A stretch of DNA of 61,522 nt from an uncultured bacterium (GTDB lineage Bacteria; Bacillota_I; Bacilli_A; RFN20; CAG-826). Where the stretch lies: NCBI GenBank assembly GCA_949290395.1, contig CASERQ010000006.1, positions 1 to 61,522 of the forward strand. Reading direction: 5' to 3'. The notes below the pieces were generated by a model. The model saw only the letters and a program-made list of their open reading frames with translations, was not told the DNA's origin and made no database searches. Positions within the stretch are counted from its first letter, which is position 1. Each line of letters begins with the position of its first letter. The position numbers were made by a program, and so were the translations under genes. Shown piece by piece: positions 45,955-58,518 of this stretch.

Positions 45955-46854
45955 ATGGAAGTCTTTATCGTAATTTTACAAGCACTACTTTATGGCGTAG
46001 TAGAAGGCATAACTGAATGGCTTCCAATTTCTTCAACTGGACATTTAATAATTCTTGATAGTGCATTTAAACTTAATGAAACTTATCCAGAATTTTGGGA
46101 TTTCTTTTTAGTTGTCATTCAACTTGGAGCGATTCTAGCTGTTATTGTTAGATTTTTTAAAGAACTTAATCCAATTAATCCTAAACTTAATAAAGAAGAA
46201 AGAAATACAATTTGGAAAACTTGGCTTAAAATTTTAATTGGCGTAATTCCAGTAGCTTTTATTGCATTAATTTTAGAATTTACTGGTGCTTCAGATTACT
46301 TAGATAACACACTAGTTGTTGCAATCGCACTTTTAATTTATGGCATTATTTTTATTGTTTTAGAAACATTTATAAAAAAAGATCAAAAGAATTTCTTTAT
46401 TGCTAGAGAAGTTGGTCTTTTACCAAGCGGAGCAACTTATTTTAAATATGATTCAACCAAAGATTTAACTTATAAAATTGCTTTCTTTATTGGATGCGCG
46501 CAAATTTTAAGTTTAATTCCTGGTACTTCAAGAAGTGGCGTAACAATTGTTGCTGCTCTTTTACTTGGCTGTTCTAGAACTTGTGGAGCTGAATATAGTT
46601 TTTATCTTTCAATTCCTGTAATGCTTGGAGCAAGTTTTCTTAAATTTATTTCTTTTATGACAAGTGGAGTTACATGGGATTTAAACATGACACTTTATCT
46701 TGTTTTTGGCTTGTTATCAGCGTTTATTACTTCTCTAATTATCATTAATACTTTAATGAAATTTGTTAAGAAACATACTTTCATTGGGTTTGGATATTAT
46801 AGAATTCTACTTGCTGTAGTTTTATTTATTCTTTTTGGAGTTGGGGTTTTATAA
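45955..46854 (+). CDS. uppP: undecaprenyl-diphosphatase UppP/BacA
   Basis: Polytopic membrane protein of 299 residues with both catalytic signatures: VEGITEWLPISSTGHLI (Glu-rich motif, ~18-34) and IPGTSRSGVTIVAALLLG (PGxSRSG). Dephosphorylates undecaprenyl diphosphate so that the lipid carrier can be reused; often confers bacitracin tolerance. Complements uppS in this window. The next gene begins two bases after its stop codon. Confidence 0.97.
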   Translation: MEVFIVILQALLYGVVEGITEWLPISSTGHLIILDSAFKLNETYPEFWDFFLVVIQLGAILAVIVRFFKELNPINPKLNKEERNTIWKTWLKILIGVIPVAFIALILEFTGASDYLDNTLVVAIALLIYGIIFIVLETFIKKDQKNFFIAREVGLLPSGATYFKYDSTKDLTYKIAFFIGCAQILSLIPGTSRSGVTIVAALLLGCSRTCGAEYSFYLSIPVMLGASFLKFISFMTSGVTWDLNMTLYLVFGLLSAFITSLIIINTLMKFVKKHTFIGFGYYRILLAVVLFILFGVGVL

Positions 46855-46855
46855 A

Positions 46856-47530
46856 ATGGCAAATAATTACAAAATTATCGATATTGATACGTGGAATCGT
46901 AAATCACAATATTTATGGTTTAATTCATTTATGAATCCAACATATGGGATTGATGTCAAGATGGATGTTACGAATCTTGTCAATTATTCTAAAAAAACTA
47001 AGACTTCATTTTTTATTAACTTTTTGTACTGTTTAACTGTAGCTTTAAATGAAGTTGAAGAATTTAGGCTTCGTTATGTAAATGGAGAAGTTCGTTTATA
47101 TGATTACATTAATCCAACTTACACCATTAAATGTATCGATGGAACATATAATAATGGCAGACACGAATTCACAAAAAGCTACTCAGTTTTTTATAAAAGA
47201 ACAAAAGAAGTGTTAGATTTTCAGAAAAATAACACAAATCATCGCGAAAACTATAATGATAGTGCTTTTTATGATGAATTTTATTTCTCATGTTTAACTA
47301 ATCTTGATTTTATTGGTATGACTCATCCAATGACTTACACTGATAAATCTTCTCAAAGTTGTACAAGAGCCCTTTGGGGTAAATATAGCCTTGAAAATGA
47401 TAGATACAAAATGACTTTAAACTTAACCGCTTCCCATGCACTTGTTGATGGAATGCCAATGGCAGAAGGCTTTAATTTAACCCAGTTTATAATTGATAAT
47501 TTCGAAACTTTCATCAAAGAAAATAATTAA
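46856..47530 (+). CDS. chloramphenicol acetyltransferase-like (type A) acyltransferase
   Basis: The start at 46856 (MANNYKIIDI) gives 224 residues, the usual type A CAT size. YKIIDIDTWNRKSQYLWFNS resembles the CAT opening, FRLRYVNGEVRLYDYINPTY the strand-rich middle, and SHALVDGMP (His ~194) corresponds to the catalytic HHxxxDG block, with Ser in place of the first His. The catalytic His and Asp-Gly are kept, so an acetyl-CoA-dependent acyltransferase is likely; chloramphenicol as substrate is not established. It may be co-transcribed with uppP. Confidence 0.8.
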   Translation: MANNYKIIDIDTWNRKSQYLWFNSFMNPTYGIDVKMDVTNLVNYSKKTKTSFFINFLYCLTVALNEVEEFRLRYVNGEVRLYDYINPTYTIKCIDGTYNNGRHEFTKSYSVFYKRTKEVLDFQKNNTNHRENYNDSAFYDEFYFSCLTNLDFIGMTHPMTYTDKSSQSCTRALWGKYSLENDRYKMTLNLTASHALVDGMPMAEGFNLTQFIIDNFETFIKENN

Positions 47531-47656: not shown

Positions 47657-50008
47657 ATGAAAAAAGTATTTGAATTAGAATTTTTTGGAAAAAAGCTTGT
47701 TGTTGAAACTGGCGAAATTGCCAAACAAGCAGATGGTGCAGTATTTGTAAGATTTAATGATACTGTCGTTTTATCAACAGTTTGTTGTAGTGATGAACCA
47801 AAAGAAGGAGATTTCTTTCCTTTAACTGTTGGTTATGAGGAAAAACAATACGCTATTGGAAGAATTCCTGGCGGATTTTTACGTAGAGAAGGTAGACCTG
47901 GAGAACATGCAACTTTAACTGCAAGATTAATTGATCGTCCAATTCGACCAATGTTCCCAGAAGGATTTAGAAATGAAGTCCAAATTGTTAACACAGTCAT
48001 GAGCGTCGATCTTGATGCAACTCCTGAAATGACAGCTATGTTTGGCTCTTCATTAGCACTTTCAATCAGTGATATTCCTTTTGATGGACCAATTGCTGGA
48101 GTTTATGTTGGAAGAGTTAATGGCGAATTCGTTATTAATCCAAGTGTTGAAGAAAGAGAAAAAAGCGATCTTAATTTAGCAGTTGCTGGTACAGCAGAAG
48201 CTATCAACATGGTTGAAGCAGGTGCTAATGAATTAAGTGAAGATGTAATGCTTGATGCTATCATGTTTGGTCATGAAGCAATCAAAAAGTTATGCAACTT
48301 CCAAAAAGAAATCGCTAACGAAATCGGAAAAGCAAAAAGAGAAGTTTCTTTATATGCTCCAGACGAAGTCATCAAAAACGATATTTATTCAAGAATTTAT
48401 GACAAAATGGTCAAATCAATCTCCATTTTCGATAAACTTGAAAGACAAAACGCAATTGATGCTCTTAAAAAAGAAATTATCGATGACTATGATGCAAGAA
48501 GTTATAAAGATGAAAAAGATCACCGTTTAACAATGCTCATGGTTAACGACATCTTAGAAAAGATGGTCGCTGACGAAGTTAGAAGATTAATTACAGTTGA
48601 AAAAATCAGACCTGATGGAAGAAAAGTCGATGAAATTAGACCACTTGATGCAAAAGTAGATTTACTTCCTAGAGTTCACGGCTCTGCAATGTTTACAAGA
48701 GGCCAAACTCAAGTTATCTCAACTTGTACATTAGGTATTAAAGATGATGAACAAATCTTAGAAAGTTTATCTCCAGAAGATCACAAGAGATGGATGCATC
48801 ATTATAATTTCCCACCTTTCTCAGTTGGTGAAATTGGTAGAATGGGAACTCCAGGCAGAAGAGAAATTGGGCACGGTGCTTTAGGAGAAAGAGCTTTAAG
48901 TTATGTTCTCCCAAGTGAAGATGAATTCCCATACACAATAAGATGTGTTGCAGAAGTTTGTGAATCAAATGGTTCCTCTTCTCAAGCTTCAATATGTGCT
49001 TCGTGTATGGCTTTAATGGCAGCAGGTGTTCCAATTAAGAGAATGGTTAGTGGAATTGCAATGGGCTTAATTACAAGTGGACCACTTGATGGAAATCACC
49101 CTTATACAATCCTTACAGATATTCAAGGCTTAGAAGATCACTTTGGAGATATGGACTTCAAAGTTGCTGGAACAGAAGTTGGTGTTACCGCTTTACAAAT
49201 GGATATTAAAATTAAAGGTGTTACTAGAGAGATTTTACATGATGCTTTAATGCAAGCTCATAATGCAAGAGCAGAAATTAGAGAAGTTATGTCAAAAGCA
49301 ATTAGTGAACCAAGAAAAGAATTATCTGAATACGCTCCTAAGTTTGAAACATTCTACATCGACAAAGATAAGATCAAAGATGTTATTGGAAGTGGCGGAA
49401 AAGTTATTAATGACATTATCGAAAGATGTAACGATGTTAAAATCGATATCGAAGATGATGGAAAAGTTACAATTTACCATACTGATAAAGATTCAATCGC
49501 TAAAGCAAAAGGAATTATTGAAAGCATTGTTAGAGAAGTTGAAGTTGGTGAAGTTTTTGAAGGCGAAGTTACTCGTGTTGAAAACTATGGCGCTTTCGTA
49601 AAATTATTTGGTGATAAAGAAGGCTTATGCCATGTCTCCGCTTTAAGTAATGGATATGTTAAAGACGCTCATGATTTTGTTAAAGTAGGCGACACTTTAA
49701 AGGTTAAAGTAATCGATGTTGACGATCATGGAAAAATCAAATTATCCCACAAAGAATTTGATGATACTGTAAGCGAAAAACCTAATGATAACTTCAAAAA
49801 ACCTGCAGAACGCAAAGATTTTTCTAAAAAACCACACTCAAATCCAAGAAATAAAAACTTTGAAAGAAAAGAAAAAAAAGAAAATGATTTAGATGGTTTT
49901 AAAGAATTCAAGAAAGAAGAAGTATTAGCTACTCCAAAAAAAGAAGAACCAAAAGTTGAAGCTGAAGAAAAGAAAAGTGGATTATTTGGTTTCTTAAAGA
50001 AAAAATAA
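47657..50008 (+). CDS. pnp: polyribonucleotide nucleotidyltransferase (PNPase)
   Basis: 3'-5' phosphorolytic exoribonuclease. First RNase PH domain ~1-215 ([20 protein letters not shown]), helical domain, second RNase PH domain ~310-540 ([16 protein letters not shown], then [18 protein letters not shown] in divergent form, MDFKVAGT), KH ([15 protein letters not shown], ~573-587) and S1 ([20 protein letters not shown], ~630-700). A basic/acidic tail of ~75 residues ends the protein. Upstream of yfcE (1-base gap) and the RNase J-like gene. Confidence 0.97.
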
Positions 50009-50009
50009 G

Positions 50010-50558
50010 ATGAAGATTTTAATTGCTAGCGATTTACATGGTTCAGTTGAATCTAGTAATAAAATTCTTGAATTAGATTCTAAATTTAATTTTGAAAAAA
50101 TAATTTTACTTGGTGATATTAATTTTAGCGGAGCACGTAACGTGCCTCCGCAAGATTATTATCCAATTTCAGTTTGTGAAAACTTATCAAAAGTAAAAGA
50201 CAAACTTGAAATCATTCGCGGTAATTGTGATTCAAGAGTCGATGAATTTGTTTTTGGAATCAAATTTGAAGACTTAAAACATATTAAAATTGGAAATCAT
50301 CGAGTTATTCTTACTCACGGTGATTTATATAACGAAGAAAACTTGCTTTTAATGCGTGGCGATATTTTTATGTATGGCCACACACATATTTTTGAACTTG
50401 AAAAGAGAAATGATGGTTATTATGTTTTAAATCCAGGGAGTTTAACTTTGCCTAAAAATAATAACCCAAAAACATACGCAATCTATGATTTAGATAAAGA
50501 AGAAATCACCCTTTATGATATTAATGATAAAGTTTTAAAAACTCTTGAACTTAACTAA
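50010..50558 (+). CDS. yfcE: YfcE/MJ0936-type metallophosphodiesterase
   Basis: 182 residues with the calcineurin-like motifs in order: ASDLHGS (DxH), LLGDINF (GD), IRGNCDS (GNxD variant), THGDLYN and YGHTHIF (GHxH). Hydrolyses phosphodiesters with Mn2+ in related proteins; the cellular substrate is unknown. One base separates it from pnp, so the two are co-transcribed. Confidence 0.93.
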   Translation: MKILIASDLHGSVESSNKILELDSKFNFEKIILLGDINFSGARNVPPQDYYPISVCENLSKVKDKLEIIRGNCDSRVDEFVFGIKFEDLKHIKIGNHRVILTHGDLYNEENLLLMRGDIFMYGHTHIFELEKRNDGYYVLNPGSLTLPKNNNPKTYAIYDLDKEEITLYDINDKVLKTLELN

Positions 50559-50591: not shown

Positions 50592-52280
50592 ATGGATAAA
50601 ATTAAAATTTTAGCCCTTGGTGGCTTAGACGAGGACGGCAAAGATCTTTATATTATCGAAATTAACGATGATATTTTTGTAATTGGCGCAGGATTTAAAT
50701 ACCCTACAAAAAATACCCCTGGTATTGATTTTATTATTGCTAATTTTGACTATCTTAAAAATAATAAAGACCGTGTAAAAGCATATATTTTACCAAAAGG
50801 TAAAGAAAATAGTTTTGGTGCACTTCCTTATATTATTCAAGAAGTACCAGCACCAGTTTATTGTACAAAGTTGACTTCAATTTATTTGGATTTATTTACC
50901 AAATTTAGACAAATTAAATATGAATATGATTATCATTTTGTAAGTTTACCTGCAGAACTTGAAATTGCTGACCATAAAATGATTTTCTTTTCAACTTGCG
51001 CTTCAATGCCTTCAACTTTTGGAATCTGCATTAAAACGGATTTAGGAAATATCGTTTATAGTGGCGATTTCATTGTTGAATATGCAAATAACAAATACTT
51101 CAAACTTGATTTAAACACATTAGGTAAAATTTCTGAAAACCCTACTTGTGTTTTACTTGGTGAATCAGTTTGTGCAACAAAACCAGGCTATTGTTCACCA
51201 AGTCATAAAATCTACAACCATTTAGAGAGCCAATTTAAATCAGCTCCTGGTAGAATTTTTGTTGCTTTATCAAGCGATAATTTATATCACATTGATGAAG
51301 TTTTCAGAGCTTGTGCAGAACACAATAAAAAGATTTGTTTATATGATGATACTTCTAAATGGATTTATAACCTTAAAAAATATGAAGAAAATCCTTACTT
51401 TAATTCAAAAAATATTGTTCCAATTGAAGATATATTAAGAATTAAGGATCAAGATCTTGTTATTTTACTTTCTGATTCAGGAGATAAGATTTACGACAAA
51501 ATTTCTCTTCTTGCAAATGGAGAAAACGAAGAAAAACAAGTTCGTTTAGGTGAAAACGATACTTTCTTTATTGGTTGCCCTGCAAATGATAATAACGAAG
51601 TCATCGCAACAAGTACTATCGATGAAGTTTATAAAAGTGGATGTCACGTTTACTATTTAACAAGAAAATCTTTAGGTAAAATGCATGCTTATGAAGAAGA
51701 TATTAAGATGCTTCTTTCCTTACTTAAACCAAAATATTATTTCCCAATTGAAGGATACTATGTCAATCTCTTAGAAAACGCAAAACTTGCATATGATATG
51801 AGAATTGGTTTAACTCATAGAAATATTTTCCTTCTTGATAATGGTCATTCGTTACTTATTGATGAAAAAGGCGCAAGCGTTGACTTTAACACTAGCGGAA
51901 ACGTTCCATTTGGTGAAGTAATGATTGATGGAATTGGCGTTGGTGATGTTGTTAATGAAATTATTTCGGAAAGAACTAGATTAAGTGAAGATGGCGTTGC
52001 TGTTTTTGGCTTAGCTATTTCTTCAAAAGAAAGAAAAATTATTGCTGGACCAGATGTACAAATGAGAGGTTTCCTTTTCTTAAAAGATAAAGAAGCTGAT
52101 ATCATGCTTAAAGAAATGACAAATATCTTTATAACAATGGTTGAAAAATGGCTTGAAACAACAAAGGATTTTGATACTAAAAAGATCGAAGAACAAATTA
52201 CAACAACTATTGCAAAATATCTTTTAAGAGGTAGCAATAGAAACCCAGTTGTTAAGCCAAATATTATCGTAATTGAATAA
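50592..52280 (+). CDS. RNase J-family protein with degenerate active site (J2-like pseudoenzyme)
   Basis: Full-length RNase J architecture (562 residues): ALGGLDEDGKDLYIIE at the start, PGIDFIIANFDYL, GNIVYSGDF, then IDGIGVGDVVNEII, ISSKERKIIAGPDVQMRGF and a C-terminal domain. The metal-binding residues are lost: the HGHEDH motif reads KGKENS (~69-74), the THS His is Cys136, and the HGEYR His is Glu387; only the Asp of SGDF (159) remains, and the GHG loop reads LGKM. RNase J2 of other Bacillota is also weak or inactive and works as a partner of J1, so a structural or RNA-guiding role is likely. It lies in an RNA-decay neighbourhood (pnp, yfcE). Confidence 0.85.
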   Translation: MDKIKILALGGLDEDGKDLYIIEINDDIFVIGAGFKYPTKNTPGIDFIIANFDYLKNNKDRVKAYILPKGKENSFGALPYIIQEVPAPVYCTKLTSIYLDLFTKFRQIKYEYDYHFVSLPAELEIADHKMIFFSTCASMPSTFGICIKTDLGNIVYSGDFIVEYANNKYFKLDLNTLGKISENPTCVLLGESVCATKPGYCSPSHKIYNHLESQFKSAPGRIFVALSSDNLYHIDEVFRACAEHNKKICLYDDTSKWIYNLKKYEENPYFNSKNIVPIEDILRIKDQDLVILLSDSGDKIYDKISLLANGENEEKQVRLGENDTFFIGCPANDNNEVIATSTIDEVYKSGCHVYYLTRKSLGKMHAYEEDIKMLLSLLKPKYYFPIEGYYVNLLENAKLAYDMRIGLTHRNIFLLDNGHSLLIDEKGASVDFNTSGNVPFGEVMIDGIGVGDVVNEIISERTRLSEDGVAVFGLAISSKERKIIAGPDVQMRGFLFLKDKEADIMLKEMTNIFITMVEKWLETTKDFDTKKIEEQITTTIAKYLLRGSNRNPVVKPNIIVIE

Positions 52281-52301: not shown

Positions 52302-52332
52302 AAAAATGATAGGCTTAAGGTCTATCATTTTT
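52302..52332 (+). terminator. terminator between RNase J-like gene and ftsK
   Basis: AAAAATGATAG (52302-52312) and CTATCATTTTT (52322-52332), a perfect 11-bp stem with a 9-base loop and a T tract. Confidence 0.88.
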
Positions 52333-52357: not shown

Positions 52358-55279
52358 GTGAATAATTTTGGTAAAAAGATACTCGATAGAGTAAGTTTTG
52401 ATTGGACAAGAATAGCGCTTGGTTTTTTAATTTGTTTAGTTAGTGTATTTGGCGCTTTATCAAATGCACCAGTTAATGATGGATTAATTTATGTTAGTAA
52501 ATTTATCAATTGGTGTGTTTCATTTTTGGTTGGTTCAATTATGGCTTATGCCGTTTATTTTATTTGCTTTTTATATGGTTTAAAACTAATTTTTTGGAAT
52601 AAAAAACTTGCAAAACGCAATTTAAACATGACTATTTTTGGAATTGTTTTAATTGTAATTTCTTGTTTAATTCTTGTTACAAACGGGGCAGTTAATCCTG
52701 ATTTAGGTTATTTAACTTTTGCTAATTTTGGAAGTTACTTTGAAATTTCTTATATTGATTTCCCTAATGTTCCTAACTTTACAAATACTGGCATTATTGG
52801 CATGAGTCTTGTAGCTTTAATCAATTCTGGAATGACAAATATTGGTTCAAATGTAATTGGCTCAATCTTACTTGTTTTAGGCGTTGGAATTGTTCTTGGA
52901 AAACCAGTTGTAAAAGCAAGCAAAATTATTATTGATTATAAGAACCAAGTTTTTAGAAAAGATGTCAAAGAAAACAATCCAGGTTTTGATGTTGCAAAAG
53001 ATGTTGAGTATACATATAACAACGTGAACAATATCCAAGAAGTTAATCAAAATTTAAATAGCGTAACTCAACCACAAAATTTCTTAAATCAAACTTTTGA
53101 AGAGAAAAAGGTTAACGAAATAGAAGAAGAAAGAGCTCCTAACGAGGAAACTTTTATTAAAGAAGCGATAAAAGAAGATAATGAAACTGTTTTTAAAGCT
53201 AACCCAATTCAAAGTAATGTAAATCAAACAAATGGTCTTGTGAAAGCTCATTTTGATCTTGATAATGAAAAACCTGCAAATGAACAAGTTGAAGTTAAAC
53301 AAAGTGAGGTAAGCCAATTTAAAAATGAACAAACTTATGTTGAAGAAGTTCATGAAGAACCAATTTACAAAGAATCAATAAACTATGGTAATAAAGTAAC
53401 CGAAGAAACTTTAAATGCTAGCGTAAATTACCCTGAAGAAAATTATAAGGACAATTCAAATGATGGTTTCGAAGGTAATAATTTTGCTGAAAATAATAAA
53501 ATTAATGAAACATTTGAAGAACAAGTTAAATTAAGCACTCAAACTTCTATTGCAGATAGAGCAAGAACGTATGAGATGAATCATATTGCTCAAGAAGTAA
53601 GACAAACTCCAGTAAATACTCCAATTAATAATACTCCTAGAGAACCTGATCCAGTTGCTCGACCTATTCAAAAAGAAACTAGAGTCCAAAGAGCAGAACC
53701 AGTCATACAAGAAGAAAATAATTATTCCAACAAAGTTGAAATTAAAAAGAAAAAACAATATAGCGGACCTTACGTTTATCCATCAGCTGATTTACTTGAA
53801 GTTAGAGATTCTAGTAAATCTTTAGGTTCGAATACTCTTGAAAATGAAAGACGTAAAGCTATCATGAATCAAGTTTTTGCTGATTTTGGAATTGGTGCAC
53901 AAATCACAAGTTATACGATTGGACCAAGTGTTACGCGTTTTGACTTACAAATGGACAAAAACGTCTCCGTTAACGCAGTTAATAAATATATTGATGACCT
54001 TTCAATTAGACTTGGAGGTCTTGATTGTAGATTCGTTCCTATCGTTCAAGGAAAATCAACTTCAGGTATTGAAATAGCTAACTTAGAAAAAAGTGTAGTT
54101 AATTTTAAAGATTGTTTAGAGCATCTTCCAACAGGGCCGGATAAAGGACTTTATATTCCTTTTGGTCAAGATATTAGTGGAAATTATATTCACGCTGATC
54201 TTAAAGAATTTCCTCACCTTTTAGTTTGTGGTACGACTGGTAGTGGTAAATCAATTTTCATGCATAGCGTAATTATGAGTTTAATTATGCGTAATCCGGT
54301 CGACGAACTTAAATTTATCATGATTGACCCTAAAAAAGTTGAATTTGGTAAATATAAAGAAATGCCTCATTTATTATGCCCACCAATTAGCGATGCTCAT
54401 CAAGCCTACATTGCATTAAAGAAATTGTGTGATGAAATGGACCGTAGATATGGTCTTTTTGAAGACTTAGGGGTCAGTAATATCAAACAATATAATGAAG
54501 AAGCTCTTGAAAATGGGCGTGAAAAATTACCTTATATTGTCTTAATTTGTGATGAGTTTGCTGATTTGATGGATTTAAATAGAAAATGTAGCGAACCAGT
54601 TGTTAGAATCGGACAAAAAGCTAGAGCTAGTGGAATTCACATGATTATTGCTACTCAAAGACCTTCAACTAATGTCATTACAGGTACAATTAAAGCTAAC
54701 TTGCCAGTAAGGGTTGCATTATCTTGTTCATCTTATACAGATTCTATTACTGTTTTAGGAGAAGGTGGCGCAGAAAAACTTCTTGGATATGGAGATATGC
54801 TTGTCTCATGTTCATTAATATCAAAGCAAGGATTTGTTAGAATTCAGGGCTGTCTTGTTGATAACAAAGAAATTAGAAGAACGGTTGAATTTTTAAAGAG
54901 CAAATACGAACCAGAATACGATCCTAATTTCCTTAATTTAATTGAAAGATCTGCTTCACAAGTTTCTCTTGATAATAATCTAGAAGAAAAAGAAGAAGCA
55001 ACTGCCATGATTTATGCTGAAGTTAAAAAATGGGTTATGGCTCAAGAGTATACTTCAATTTCTAAAATTCAACATAACTTTAAAGTTGGATTCCCTCGTG
55101 CTACAAAGTTTTTTGAAAGACTTATAGCAGAAGGAATAGTGGAAGATTCAAAAGAATCAAATAACAGTTCAAAAGGTAGAAAAGTTCTTGTAAGAATGCA
55201 AGAAGATGACCTTTCATATAACCAAAATCCTGGTTCTATTGAACAAACAACCATGGATTATTCTTCAAAAGGTTATTAA
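52358..55279 (+). CDS. ftsK: DNA translocase FtsK/SpoIIIE
   Basis: 973 residues starting with GTG. About four N-terminal membrane helices (~20-185), a ~270-residue disordered linker rich in Asn, Glu and Gln (~215-480), then the motor: FtsK-alpha (~490-590), P-loop CGTTGSGKSIFMHSVI (~624-639), ICDEFADLMDL (Walker B), IHMIIATQRPSTNVITG, GYGDMLVS, and a C-terminal gamma winged helix (YTSISKIQHNFKVGFPRA). Pumps DNA through the closing septum. Only 3 bases separate it from acpS. Confidence 0.97.
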   Translation: MNNFGKKILDRVSFDWTRIALGFLICLVSVFGALSNAPVNDGLIYVSKFINWCVSFLVGSIMAYAVYFICFLYGLKLIFWNKKLAKRNLNMTIFGIVLIVISCLILVTNGAVNPDLGYLTFANFGSYFEISYIDFPNVPNFTNTGIIGMSLVALINSGMTNIGSNVIGSILLVLGVGIVLGKPVVKASKIIIDYKNQVFRKDVKENNPGFDVAKDVEYTYNNVNNIQEVNQNLNSVTQPQNFLNQTFEEKKVNEIEEERAPNEETFIKEAIKEDNETVFKANPIQSNVNQTNGLVKAHFDLDNEKPANEQVEVKQSEVSQFKNEQTYVEEVHEEPIYKESINYGNKVTEETLNASVNYPEENYKDNSNDGFEGNNFAENNKINETFEEQVKLSTQTSIADRARTYEMNHIAQEVRQTPVNTPINNTPREPDPVARPIQKETRVQRAEPVIQEENNYSNKVEIKKKKQYSGPYVYPSADLLEVRDSSKSLGSNTLENERRKAIMNQVFADFGIGAQITSYTIGPSVTRFDLQMDKNVSVNAVNKYIDDLSIRLGGLDCRFVPIVQGKSTSGIEIANLEKSVVNFKDCLEHLPTGPDKGLYIPFGQDISGNYIHADLKEFPHLLVCGTTGSGKSIFMHSVIMSLIMRNPVDELKFIMIDPKKVEFGKYKEMPHLLCPPISDAHQAYIALKKLCDEMDRRYGLFEDLGVSNIKQYNEEALENGREKLPYIVLICDEFADLMDLNRKCSEPVVRIGQKARASGIHMIIATQRPSTNVITGTIKANLPVRVALSCSSYTDSITVLGEGGAEKLLGYGDMLVSCSLISKQGFVRIQGCLVDNKEIRRTVEFLKSKYEPEYDPNFLNLIERSASQVSLDNNLEEKEEATAMIYAEVKKWVMAQEYTSISKIQHNFKVGFPRATKFFERLIAEGIVEDSKESNNSSKGRKVLVRMQEDDLSYNQNPGSIEQTTMDYSSKGY

Positions 55280-55600: not shown

Positions 55601-57770
55601 CACATTCTTTGGAGCCAATTTAGTTGACTATCATACTATAAGAATCGCTATATTTTCTGAAGTAAATAAAAGCGCAAATTCACCATTTAATTTAATTATT
55701 GATAGTGAAAAAATTGTTGTACTTGAAGTTGCAAAACAAAGTTATTTAAATGGACTTTGTTTATATGAATGTCACAGTAAAGACAAGATTGAACTTGGAC
55801 ACAATTATGTAATTCAATGTCGTGATTTCGGTTCGACCTCTTTAAACGTAAATGAAGCAACAACTTTTAAATCTTTCGATATGGATTATTTCTATGAAGG
55901 AGATGATTTAGGAGCAACTTACACTAAAGAAAGAACAACTTTTAAACTTTGGGCTCCTTTAGCAAGTAAAGTTTCTTTATTTATCCGTAAAAAATCTAGT
56001 GATACATTCCTCACCTACAAAATGAAAAGAGGAGACAAAGGCGTTTATGAATTAACTCTTGAAGGTGATTATGATGGTTATATGTATCGCTATTCAGTCA
56101 CAAATAGTGGCTTAAATTTAATTACAACTGATCCTTATGCAAAAGCTTCAACTGCAAACGGAAAAGATAGCGTTGTTATCGATTTTGAAAAAACAAAAAT
56201 CAACCTTTTTGAAGAAGCTTTACCAAAATATAAAAATTATAGCGAAGCTATTATTTATGAATTCCATGTCAGAGACATGACAATTGATGAAAACACCGAT
56301 ATTCACTATAAAGGTAAATATTTAGGCTTAACCGAAGAAGGAAGAAAAACAAAAGGTGGAAATCCTGCTGGACTTGATTACATTAAATTTTTAGGACCAA
56401 CTCATGTTCAATTGCTTCCAATTTATGATTATAAAACAGTAGATGAATTAAACCCTGATTCTCAATATAATTGGGGCTATGACCCTGCTCAATATTTTGT
56501 TCCAGAAGGAAGTTATGCAACAGATCCAAATGACGGCTATTCTAGAATTATTGAGCTTAAGAAAATGATTGCAGCATTCCATCAAAATGGAATAAAAGTT
56601 AACATGGATGTTGTTTTTAACCATGTTTATTCAAGTGAATTTTCTGCTTTTGAAAAAGTAGTTCCAAATTATTATTTTAGAAAAAATAAAAACGGAACTT
56701 TATGCAATGGAAGTGGATGTGGCAATGATTTAGATACATCCCGTTCAATGGTTAGAAAAATGATCATTGATGCTCTTGTGTATTGGGTTAAAGAATTTGG
56801 AATCGATGGATATCGTTTTGATTTAATGGGCTTAATCGATATCGACACAATGAATCTTGCTGTTAGAAAAGTTAAAGAAATTAAACCTGATGCAATGCTT
56901 TATGGTGAAGGTTGGGATATGGCTACAAATCTTGCTTCTGATAAGAGAACAACCATCTATAATTCTTTCAAAACACCTCAAATAGGCTATTTTAACGATA
57001 CATTTAGAGATATTGTTAGAGGAAATAACGACTTAAAAAACAACAGCTATCCAGGATACATTTTAGGAAATACAAGTTTCTTAGAAGGATTTAAATTCTG
57101 CTATTTAGGAAGTAGCGTAAATTATTGTTATCAACCACGTTTCTTAAGTCATAATCAATCAATTAATTATGTTGAATGTCATGATAATGGAACTGTTTTT
57201 GATAAAATTACAAGACATTTTAAAGATGATCCACTTGAGAAAAAACTTAAGATTTTAAAAATGATTAATGCGGCAGTTGCTTTCTCATTTGGAATTTCTT
57301 TCTATCATTCTGGCCAAGAAATTGGTCTTTCTAAAGATATGGAAGACAACACTTATAATAAAGGTGATAAATATAACAAATTCGATTATTCAATTCTCGA
57401 TAGTAGATTCGAAGAAGCTTTATATCTTAAGAGTTTGATTAAAGGTAAGAGAGTTTATAGTTCTATTTTCTCTTTATTCGAAAGTAGCGATGATGTTGCA
57501 AGTTCTAATGAATTTGTAAATCTTGAAAATGGTGCTTTAATGATTAATATCTTCTCGCCTCATAAAAGCGAAAAATATTGCTATATCTTTAATCCAACTG
57601 ATAAAGCAATTTCTGTAACCTTTGACGATTATTATCGTCTTATCGTAGGAGAAGGTGGCTATTTAAAGAAATCTGAAATTTACATTCAAAATTTCCAATG
57701 CGATCCATATACTGCAAACGTTTTTGTGGCGAAAAATAAACATGATAAAGTACTTAAAAGTAATAATTAA
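55593..57770 (+). CDS. pulA: type I pullulanase (GH13), cytosolic
   Basis: 725 residues, no signal peptide. An N-terminal beta domain is followed by a CBM48 domain (~105-200; TTFKLWAPLASKVSLFI) and the GH13 barrel. YNWGYDPAQYFVPEGSY is the type I pullulanase signature; DVVFNHV, GYRFDLMG (nucleophile Asp), YGEGWDM (acid/base Glu) and ECHDN are the four conserved regions. Cleaves alpha-1,6 branches of glycogen, pullulan or imported limit dextrins. No other glycogen gene adjoins it. Confidence 0.95.
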   Translation: MINTFFGANLVDYHTIRIAIFSEVNKSANSPFNLIIDSEKIVVLEVAKQSYLNGLCLYECHSKDKIELGHNYVIQCRDFGSTSLNVNEATTFKSFDMDYFYEGDDLGATYTKERTTFKLWAPLASKVSLFIRKKSSDTFLTYKMKRGDKGVYELTLEGDYDGYMYRYSVTNSGLNLITTDPYAKASTANGKDSVVIDFEKTKINLFEEALPKYKNYSEAIIYEFHVRDMTIDENTDIHYKGKYLGLTEEGRKTKGGNPAGLDYIKFLGPTHVQLLPIYDYKTVDELNPDSQYNWGYDPAQYFVPEGSYATDPNDGYSRIIELKKMIAAFHQNGIKVNMDVVFNHVYSSEFSAFEKVVPNYYFRKNKNGTLCNGSGCGNDLDTSRSMVRKMIIDALVYWVKEFGIDGYRFDLMGLIDIDTMNLAVRKVKEIKPDAMLYGEGWDMATNLASDKRTTIYNSFKTPQIGYFNDTFRDIVRGNNDLKNNSYPGYILGNTSFLEGFKFCYLGSSVNYCYQPRFLSHNQSINYVECHDNGTVFDKITRHFKDDPLEKKLKILKMINAAVAFSFGISFYHSGQEIGLSKDMEDNTYNKGDKYNKFDYSILDSRFEEALYLKSLIKGKRVYSSIFSLFESSDDVASSNEFVNLENGALMINIFSPHKSEKYCYIFNPTDKAISVTFDDYYRLIVGEGGYLKKSEIYIQNFQCDPYTANVFVAKNKHDKVLKSNN

Positions 57771-58518
57771 GATATTACCAATCTTACTCTATGACTATTT
57801 TGCTCGGCTTATTAAATATTCACGCCATCCAGAAAAATATCCTTTAGAAGTAAGATTTAGAAGAATTCAAACTTTAATTATAAAAGTTTTAAACGCATTC
57901 AATGTTAAAGTTGAAAATTTTAACATTGAAGAATTTTACGAAAATTATAATCCTGATAAATCCAATTTATATGTAGCAAATCATATAAGTGATTTAGATC
58001 CTTTAATTTTTGTAGCTTTATCCAAAAAACCATTAACATTCGTTGGAAAAATCGAAATTAGAAAATATCCAATGGTGAATAGGGTAATTCGTGCTTTAGA
58101 AGGGGAATTTTTAGATAGAAATGATTTAAAACAATCATTAAGAGTCTTTAAATCTATCGAAAAGAAGATGAACGAAAAGCCAAATCTTGATTGGCTCATT
58201 TTCCCTGAAGGAACAAGAAATAGAGTGAATCCAAGCGATACAAAAGAGTTCCATTATGGAACCTTTAAAGCTGCAATGAATAGCAAGTCTGATATCAATG
58301 TGTTCTCTTTATTAGGTTCACATAGAGTTTTAGATATTAAATGTAAATTTAAAACTTATCCAGTCTCTTTAAAATTCAATCATTGCTATAAATACGAAGA
58401 ATATTCTACAAAAAAGACGGTTGAACTAAGTTCGGAAGCTTATAAAGTATGTAGAAGTGGTGTTGAATCTTTGGTTCCTGAGGATAAAAAATTAGTTGAA
58501 AAGTACAATAAAAATTAA
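57742..58518 (+). CDS. plsC: 1-acyl-sn-glycerol-3-phosphate acyltransferase (PlsC family)
   Basis: The start at 57742 (MIKYLKVIIK) opens with an N-terminal hydrophobic helix and overlaps pulA by 29 bases; no clear ribosome-binding site. The catalytic NHISDLDPL (HxxxxD, ~75-83) and FPEGTRNR (~154-161) motifs are intact. Adds the second acyl chain to lysophosphatidate in the membrane. About 258 residues is normal. Sits in one run with ftsK, acpS and pulA; together with acpS it links this operon to lipid synthesis. Its stop overlaps the opposing gene by 4 bases. Confidence 0.92.
   Translation: MIKYLKVIIKILPILLYDYFARLIKYSRHPEKYPLEVRFRRIQTLIIKVLNAFNVKVENFNIEEFYENYNPDKSNLYVANHISDLDPLIFVALSKKPLTFVGKIEIRKYPMVNRVIRALEGEFLDRNDLKQSLRVFKSIEKKMNEKPNLDWLIFPEGTRNRVNPSDTKEFHYGTFKAAMNSKSDINVFSLLGSHRVLDIKCKFKTYPVSLKFNHCYKYEEYSTKKTVELSSEAYKVCRSGVESLVPEDKKLVEKYNKN

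Follow-up and report, generated by a model that had tools for sequence, protein, structure and literature searches.

Reports on RNase J2 differ between species and describe weak activity, strong activity or a structural role. In the RNase J1 of S. epidermidis, one Mn is held by H74, H76, H142 and D164 and the other by D78, H79, D164 and H390 (PMC7864078). The staphylococcal J2 keeps H76, H78, H144 and Glu166, binds one Mn and is active in vitro (PMC7864078). In S. aureus the active site of J2 is dispensable but the protein is not, as the J2 H76A/H78A mutant shows wild-type-like growth whereas deletion of J2 makes the cells sick; the authors proposed that J2 acts structurally (PMC3937233). The E. 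faecalis J2 variants H69A and H71A are inactive, yet they bind J1 with Kd values of 81 and 89 nM (74 nM for the wild type), and J1 binding is in this sense independent of the motif-II histidines (PMC5383250). The J2 of B. subtilis lacks the signature motif, and its residual exonuclease activity was lost when the J1 motif was introduced (PMC7864078). The RNase_J_C domain is the subunit-pairing region in known RNase J proteins (PMC7864078). Pairs consisting of a dead beta-CASP paralogue and an active one are also known from INTS9/INTS11 and CPSF100/CPSF73, where motif II of INTS9 reads NYHC (PMC7980224); these pairs serve eukaryotic 3'-end processing, are distantly related to J1-J2 by fold and may work in a like manner.

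In the present work, we have analysed an RNase J gene from a window of 61,522 nucleotides (the whole stretch of DNA under analysis). The gene and its surroundings are as follows.

47657..50008, + strand: pnp, polynucleotide phosphorylase, upstream of rnjB on the same strand
50010..50558, + strand: yfcE-type metallophosphoesterase, separated by 1 base from pnp and by 33 bases from rnjB
50592..52280, + strand: rnjB, 562 aa, orthologue of RNase J2 whose metal centre is destroyed (ORF list, profile and structure-sequence matches, alignment, tree)
51963..52268, + strand: RNase_J_C C-terminal domain of the rnjB product (PF17770, residues 458-559, E 4.9e-16)
52302..52332, + strand: terminator-like hairpin after rnjB, 14 pairs then a T run; the longest stem, in a count of such matches not above chance
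52358..55279, + strand: ftsK/spoIIIE-type DNA translocase, the conserved downstream neighbour of rnjB

Translation of 50592..52280 (+) gives an ATG start and 562 codons with zero internal stops. The RNase J profile TIGR00649 matches residues 4-559 of the product (E 1.2e-95, 321 bits), a clear homology that misses the naming threshold set by the curated NCBIfam cut-off of 400 bits, and the RnjA model scores 335 bits, below its curated 820. Among Pfam domains, the beta-CASP match is weak and there is no match to the metallo-beta-lactamase domain. The closest solved structure by sequence is the S. epidermidis RNase J2, matched end to end (E 3e-92; E 2e-75 for J1). An AlphaFold2 model built from a 40-row alignment has a mean pLDDT of 88.8, with values of 92-96 in the blocks that contain the old active site, and among solved structures its fold is best matched by RNase J2 (6k6w, Z 46.4) and the J1-J2 model 9a5v. 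The S. epidermidis J2 is thus the best solved match by both sequence and fold, and the product has the RNase J layout (viz. metallo-beta-lactamase and beta-CASP regions, RNase_J_C, RNase J fold and full length). Like the staphylococcal J2, it combines a full-length RNase J fold and the loss of H390 with the presence of a J1 in the same genome. The initial annotation had described an RNase J homologue with the length and C-terminal signatures of the family, and the whole-length TIGR00649 match and the RNase_J_C domain bear this out; the generic assignment can be narrowed to RNase J2 (RnjB), which the gene is by descent.

The genome of the window (1.37 Mb, 96% complete) was searched piecewise and contains two RNase J genes only, rnjB and a J1. 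The J1 gene (G000:C3:16988-18631) adjoins a peptide-deformylase-like ORF and is intact, with all seven ligands present (HHDHHDH), as had been sought on the basis of the initial annotation; a gene for RNase Y is present in the same genome. Aligned with this J1, the rnjB product reads KKNSADE at the seven ligand positions (H74, H76, D78, H79, H142, D164 and H390), so that one ligand of seven is kept (Asp159, corresponding to D164 of J1) and six are replaced. The motifs concerned are located as follows.

50793..50813, + strand: motif II, P68-K69-G-K71-E-N73-S74, in place of T-H-G-H-E-D-H (H74 to K, H76 to K, D78 to N, H79 to S)
50994..51005, + strand: motif III, T135-C136-A137-S138, in place of [TV]-T-H-S (H142 to A)
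51060..51071, + strand: motif IV, S157-G-D159-F160, with the sole retained ligand (D164 of J1), invariant in 23/23 congeners
51663..51689, + strand: 5'-phosphate pocket region, R358-K-S-L361-G-K363-M-H365-A (J1 H364 to Leu, S366 to Lys, H368 kept)
51744..51764, + strand: post-beta-CASP motif, P385-I-E387-G-Y-Y-V, in place of P-x-H-G-E-Y-R (H390 to E)

The same alignment agrees with the earlier reading that HGHEDH had become KGKENS, that the His of HGEYR had become Glu and that the Asp of SGDF was retained. The accompanying claim that the His of THS had become Cys has to be corrected: motif III is STCASMP against TTHSIP, and the metal His is replaced by Ala137, with Cys136 taking the place of the preceding Thr. 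Cys136 was considered as a new nucleophile and set aside, as sister genera that have the His also have Cys there (their motif III reads TCH, TAH or TTH). The loss of the ligands is not a sequencing error because it is shared by all 23 congeneric RNase J2. CGG has been reported to encode Trp in some Onthovivens (PMC13092985); a recoding artefact was rejected, and the substitutions are independent of recoding, because rnjB contains no CGG and no in-frame TGA. A single CGG codon was present among eleven ORFs counted, at window positions 57805-57807 (+) in the ORF at 57724. With one of the seven ligands of the two-metal active site, the rnjB product is not classed among the active RNase J nucleases.

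The genus of the window (g1) includes Candidatus Onthovivens merdipullorum, G020:C56:25362 being the same place in JADIMY010000077.1. In all 23 of its full-length J2 proteins, motif II is K/R-x-K and H142 is replaced by A or S. The residues K71, C136, S138, D159, H365 and G388 are invariant (23/23), K69 is found in 22 of the 23 (Arg in the remaining one), N73 and E387 are each found in 21, and the old H79 position varies freely. Since the replacing residues are themselves conserved, selection keeps these new residues and not the fold alone. This conservation also bears on the possibility that the protein retains weak RNA cleavage, with one metal bound by Asp159 together with new ligands (Asn73, Glu387 or Cys136, for instance). 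Such a site could draw on residues present in 23/23 (Asp159, Cys136) and 21/23 (Glu387) congeners, and the S. epidermidis J2 is active with a single metal and a changed set of ligands (PMC7864078). More generally, broken metal motifs can leave weak activity, as in the B. subtilis J2 (PMC7864078). However, all three site-1 histidines are gone, two of them replaced by metal-repelling Lys, Cys136 is no new ligand because Cys occurs at this position in sister genera with the His, and removal of either motif-II His inactivates the E. faecalis J2 (PMC5383250). We therefore consider residual cutting very unlikely.

Close congeneric pairs gave dN/dS values of 0.05-0.20 for J2 and 0.015-0.09 for J1 in the same species pairs, values that are rough, as dS approaches or exceeds 1 for some of the pairs. 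Purifying selection acts on the gene, and a misread sequence or a pseudogene is ruled out by the 23 congeners together with dN/dS. That rnjB is on its way out, drifting towards a pseudogene under relaxed selection, could be argued from a J2 dN/dS about twice that of J1, but the ratio itself, the frame open in 23/23 congeners and the conservation of the replacing residues make this extremely improbable. The J2 proteins evolve faster than J1 and are more acidic (mean charge -13 vs. -1), features which could reflect a changed partner.

The loss of metal ligands was examined on a tree inferred after removal of the motif columns; its root is uncertain, as is the branching order among the J2 lineages. 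All J1 group together (support 100), separate from every J2, and within J2 the g1 sequences form a single branch (support 100); rows had first been sorted as J2 by the lack of at least one ligand, and the tree agrees with this sorting. H390 is lost in all 87 J2 rows, which requires one change on the tree. Elsewhere in the family, ten J2 from eight genera other than g1 retain H74, H76 and H142 with D/E at 164, and have lost H390 and H79. As these sister genera lack H390 and H79 but retain site 1, the loss of metal site 2 came before that of site 1, which broke down at the base of g1. Joint loss of H74 and H76 requires five changes on the tree in four lineages, one of which includes a row with His at one place, and all 18 rows concerned have lost H142 too.

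At least three other Bacilli lineages have, on this tree, lost the same histidines separately from g1. The families f11 and f22, which readthrough of TGA codons and genome sizes of 0.7-1.2 Mb suggest are Mycoplasma-like, have J2 with 0-1 of 7 ligands. These resemble the rnjB product in the loss of motif-II His (both in most), in the loss of H142 in all and in the presence of an intact J1, and differ from it in their independent loss, in having Asn, Asp, Ser or Gly instead of Lys-Lys and, in f22, in also lacking the Asp. Two further J2 are L097 (G030), of the same order, with none of the seven ligands (QIEATSN at the ligand positions), and L130 (G100), with one of seven (RGRTSDS). Both lie on very long branches, owing to which their exact place in the tree is unsure, neither groups with g1, and both genomes contain an intact J1. 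Every checked genome whose J2 lacks the motif-II histidines has a J1 with all seven ligands. Another decay route is seen in L222, the J2 of an Erysipelotrichaceae MAG (HHSMSNS), which retains the motif-II His and has lost H142 and D164. As a separate observation, L035 (G062, family f18) has three RNase J genes, with one in-frame TAA in a J1-type copy.

These results also delimit an earlier claim that the loss goes beyond that in known J2 proteins. It holds against the J2 whose residues were compared, those of S. epidermidis, S. aureus and E. faecalis, which keep both motif-II His, but it is not unique, as losses equal to or beyond those of g1 occur in the TGA-reading Mycoplasma-like genomes and in two other lineages. 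The rnjB product differs from the staphylococcal J2 in having lost its histidines, with the acidic residue alone kept, as Asp; it shares with the E. faecalis J2 the non-conservation of the site-2 ligands, but the latter keeps both motif-II His and weak exonuclease activity (PMC5383250). Judged by its ligand set, the rnjB product marks the end of a loss that has gone part of the way in known J2s.

In g1 and in related families the genes are repeatedly found in the order pnp-(yfcE)-rnjB-ftsK, and rnjB-ftsK is found in many J2 loci with metal ligands. Presumably, pnpA and spoIIIE flank rnjB in B. subtilis as well. The position of rnjB is an inherited J2 locus, since the gene order is common to J2s retaining their metal ligands. 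In the same region, a CatA-like acetyltransferase ORF with a TTG start is located between uppP and pnp (46835-47530, +), its match (E 1e-25) being far under the family cut-offs. The presence of pnp and yfcE directly upstream of rnjB had been taken in the initial annotation as a sign of a pseudoenzyme scaffold in an RNA-decay complex. The adjacency is confirmed by the ORF list, and a destroyed metal centre with a non-catalytic partner role remains the best explanation, but the adjacency is not evidence for such a complex, as the same order accompanies J2s that keep their metal ligands; a PNPase partnership read from gene order was set aside on the same ground. J1, rather than PNPase, is the likely partner.

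A related alternative is that the rnjB product is an RNA-binding regulator, acting alone or with another partner such as PNPase, and not a subunit of a J1 complex. The short distances between pnp, yfcE and rnjB, which share a strand, are in keeping with this, as are the acidity and faster evolution of J2. The RNA path offers a further point: the J1 S366 position is Lys in 22/23 J2 of the genus and in 0/18 J1, which may indicate changed RNA-end binding, and as H368 is kept, RNA or phosphate binding may persist. Against this, the locus is inherited and common to J2s with metal ligands, the subunit-pairing C-terminal domain is retained, and characterised J2s bind J1 tightly with no need of the active site (PMC5383250, PMC3937233). 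We regard a regulator of this kind as unlikely.

The reading that we favour, with a probability of roughly 80%, is that the rnjB product is a full pseudonuclease and a structural partner of J1, in which both the inactivity and the J1 binding are inferred. Lacking H74, H76 and H142 of site 1 and D78, H79 and H390 of site 2, the protein would hold no catalytic metal and would cut no RNA. It would pair with RNase J1, and the J1-J2 complex would perform 5'-3' RNA decay with its sole active site contributed by J1. A J1-J2 complex with one active site is the simplest account; the rnjB product has naturally lost both histidines that were mutated in S. aureus and E. faecalis. The two Lys beside the kept Asp and, usually, Glu point to a salt-bridge cluster where the metals had been, in which Lys69 and Lys71, with Asp159 and usually Glu387, would keep the site folded; the Lys69/Lys71 pocket may still hold an RNA phosphate. 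A more specific proposal, in which the Lys69-Lys71-Asp159-Glu387 cluster replaces both metals and J2 is a non-cutting clamp of the RNA 5' end that feeds J1, a metal-free use of the beta-CASP channel, is conceivable but doubtful.

In the literature searched, the coverage of which is partial, no description of metal-free J2 lineages was found. The J2 of g1 bear on the unsettled question of why Bacilli retain two RNase J proteins: in g1 and in at least three separate lineages the catalytic residues have been lost and the gene kept, which indicates that the conserved job of J2 needs no catalysis. These J2 are natural separation-of-function proteins for probing the J1-J2 partnership, and J1-J2 here would be the bacterial counterpart to pairs with the pseudonucleases INTS9 and CPSF100.
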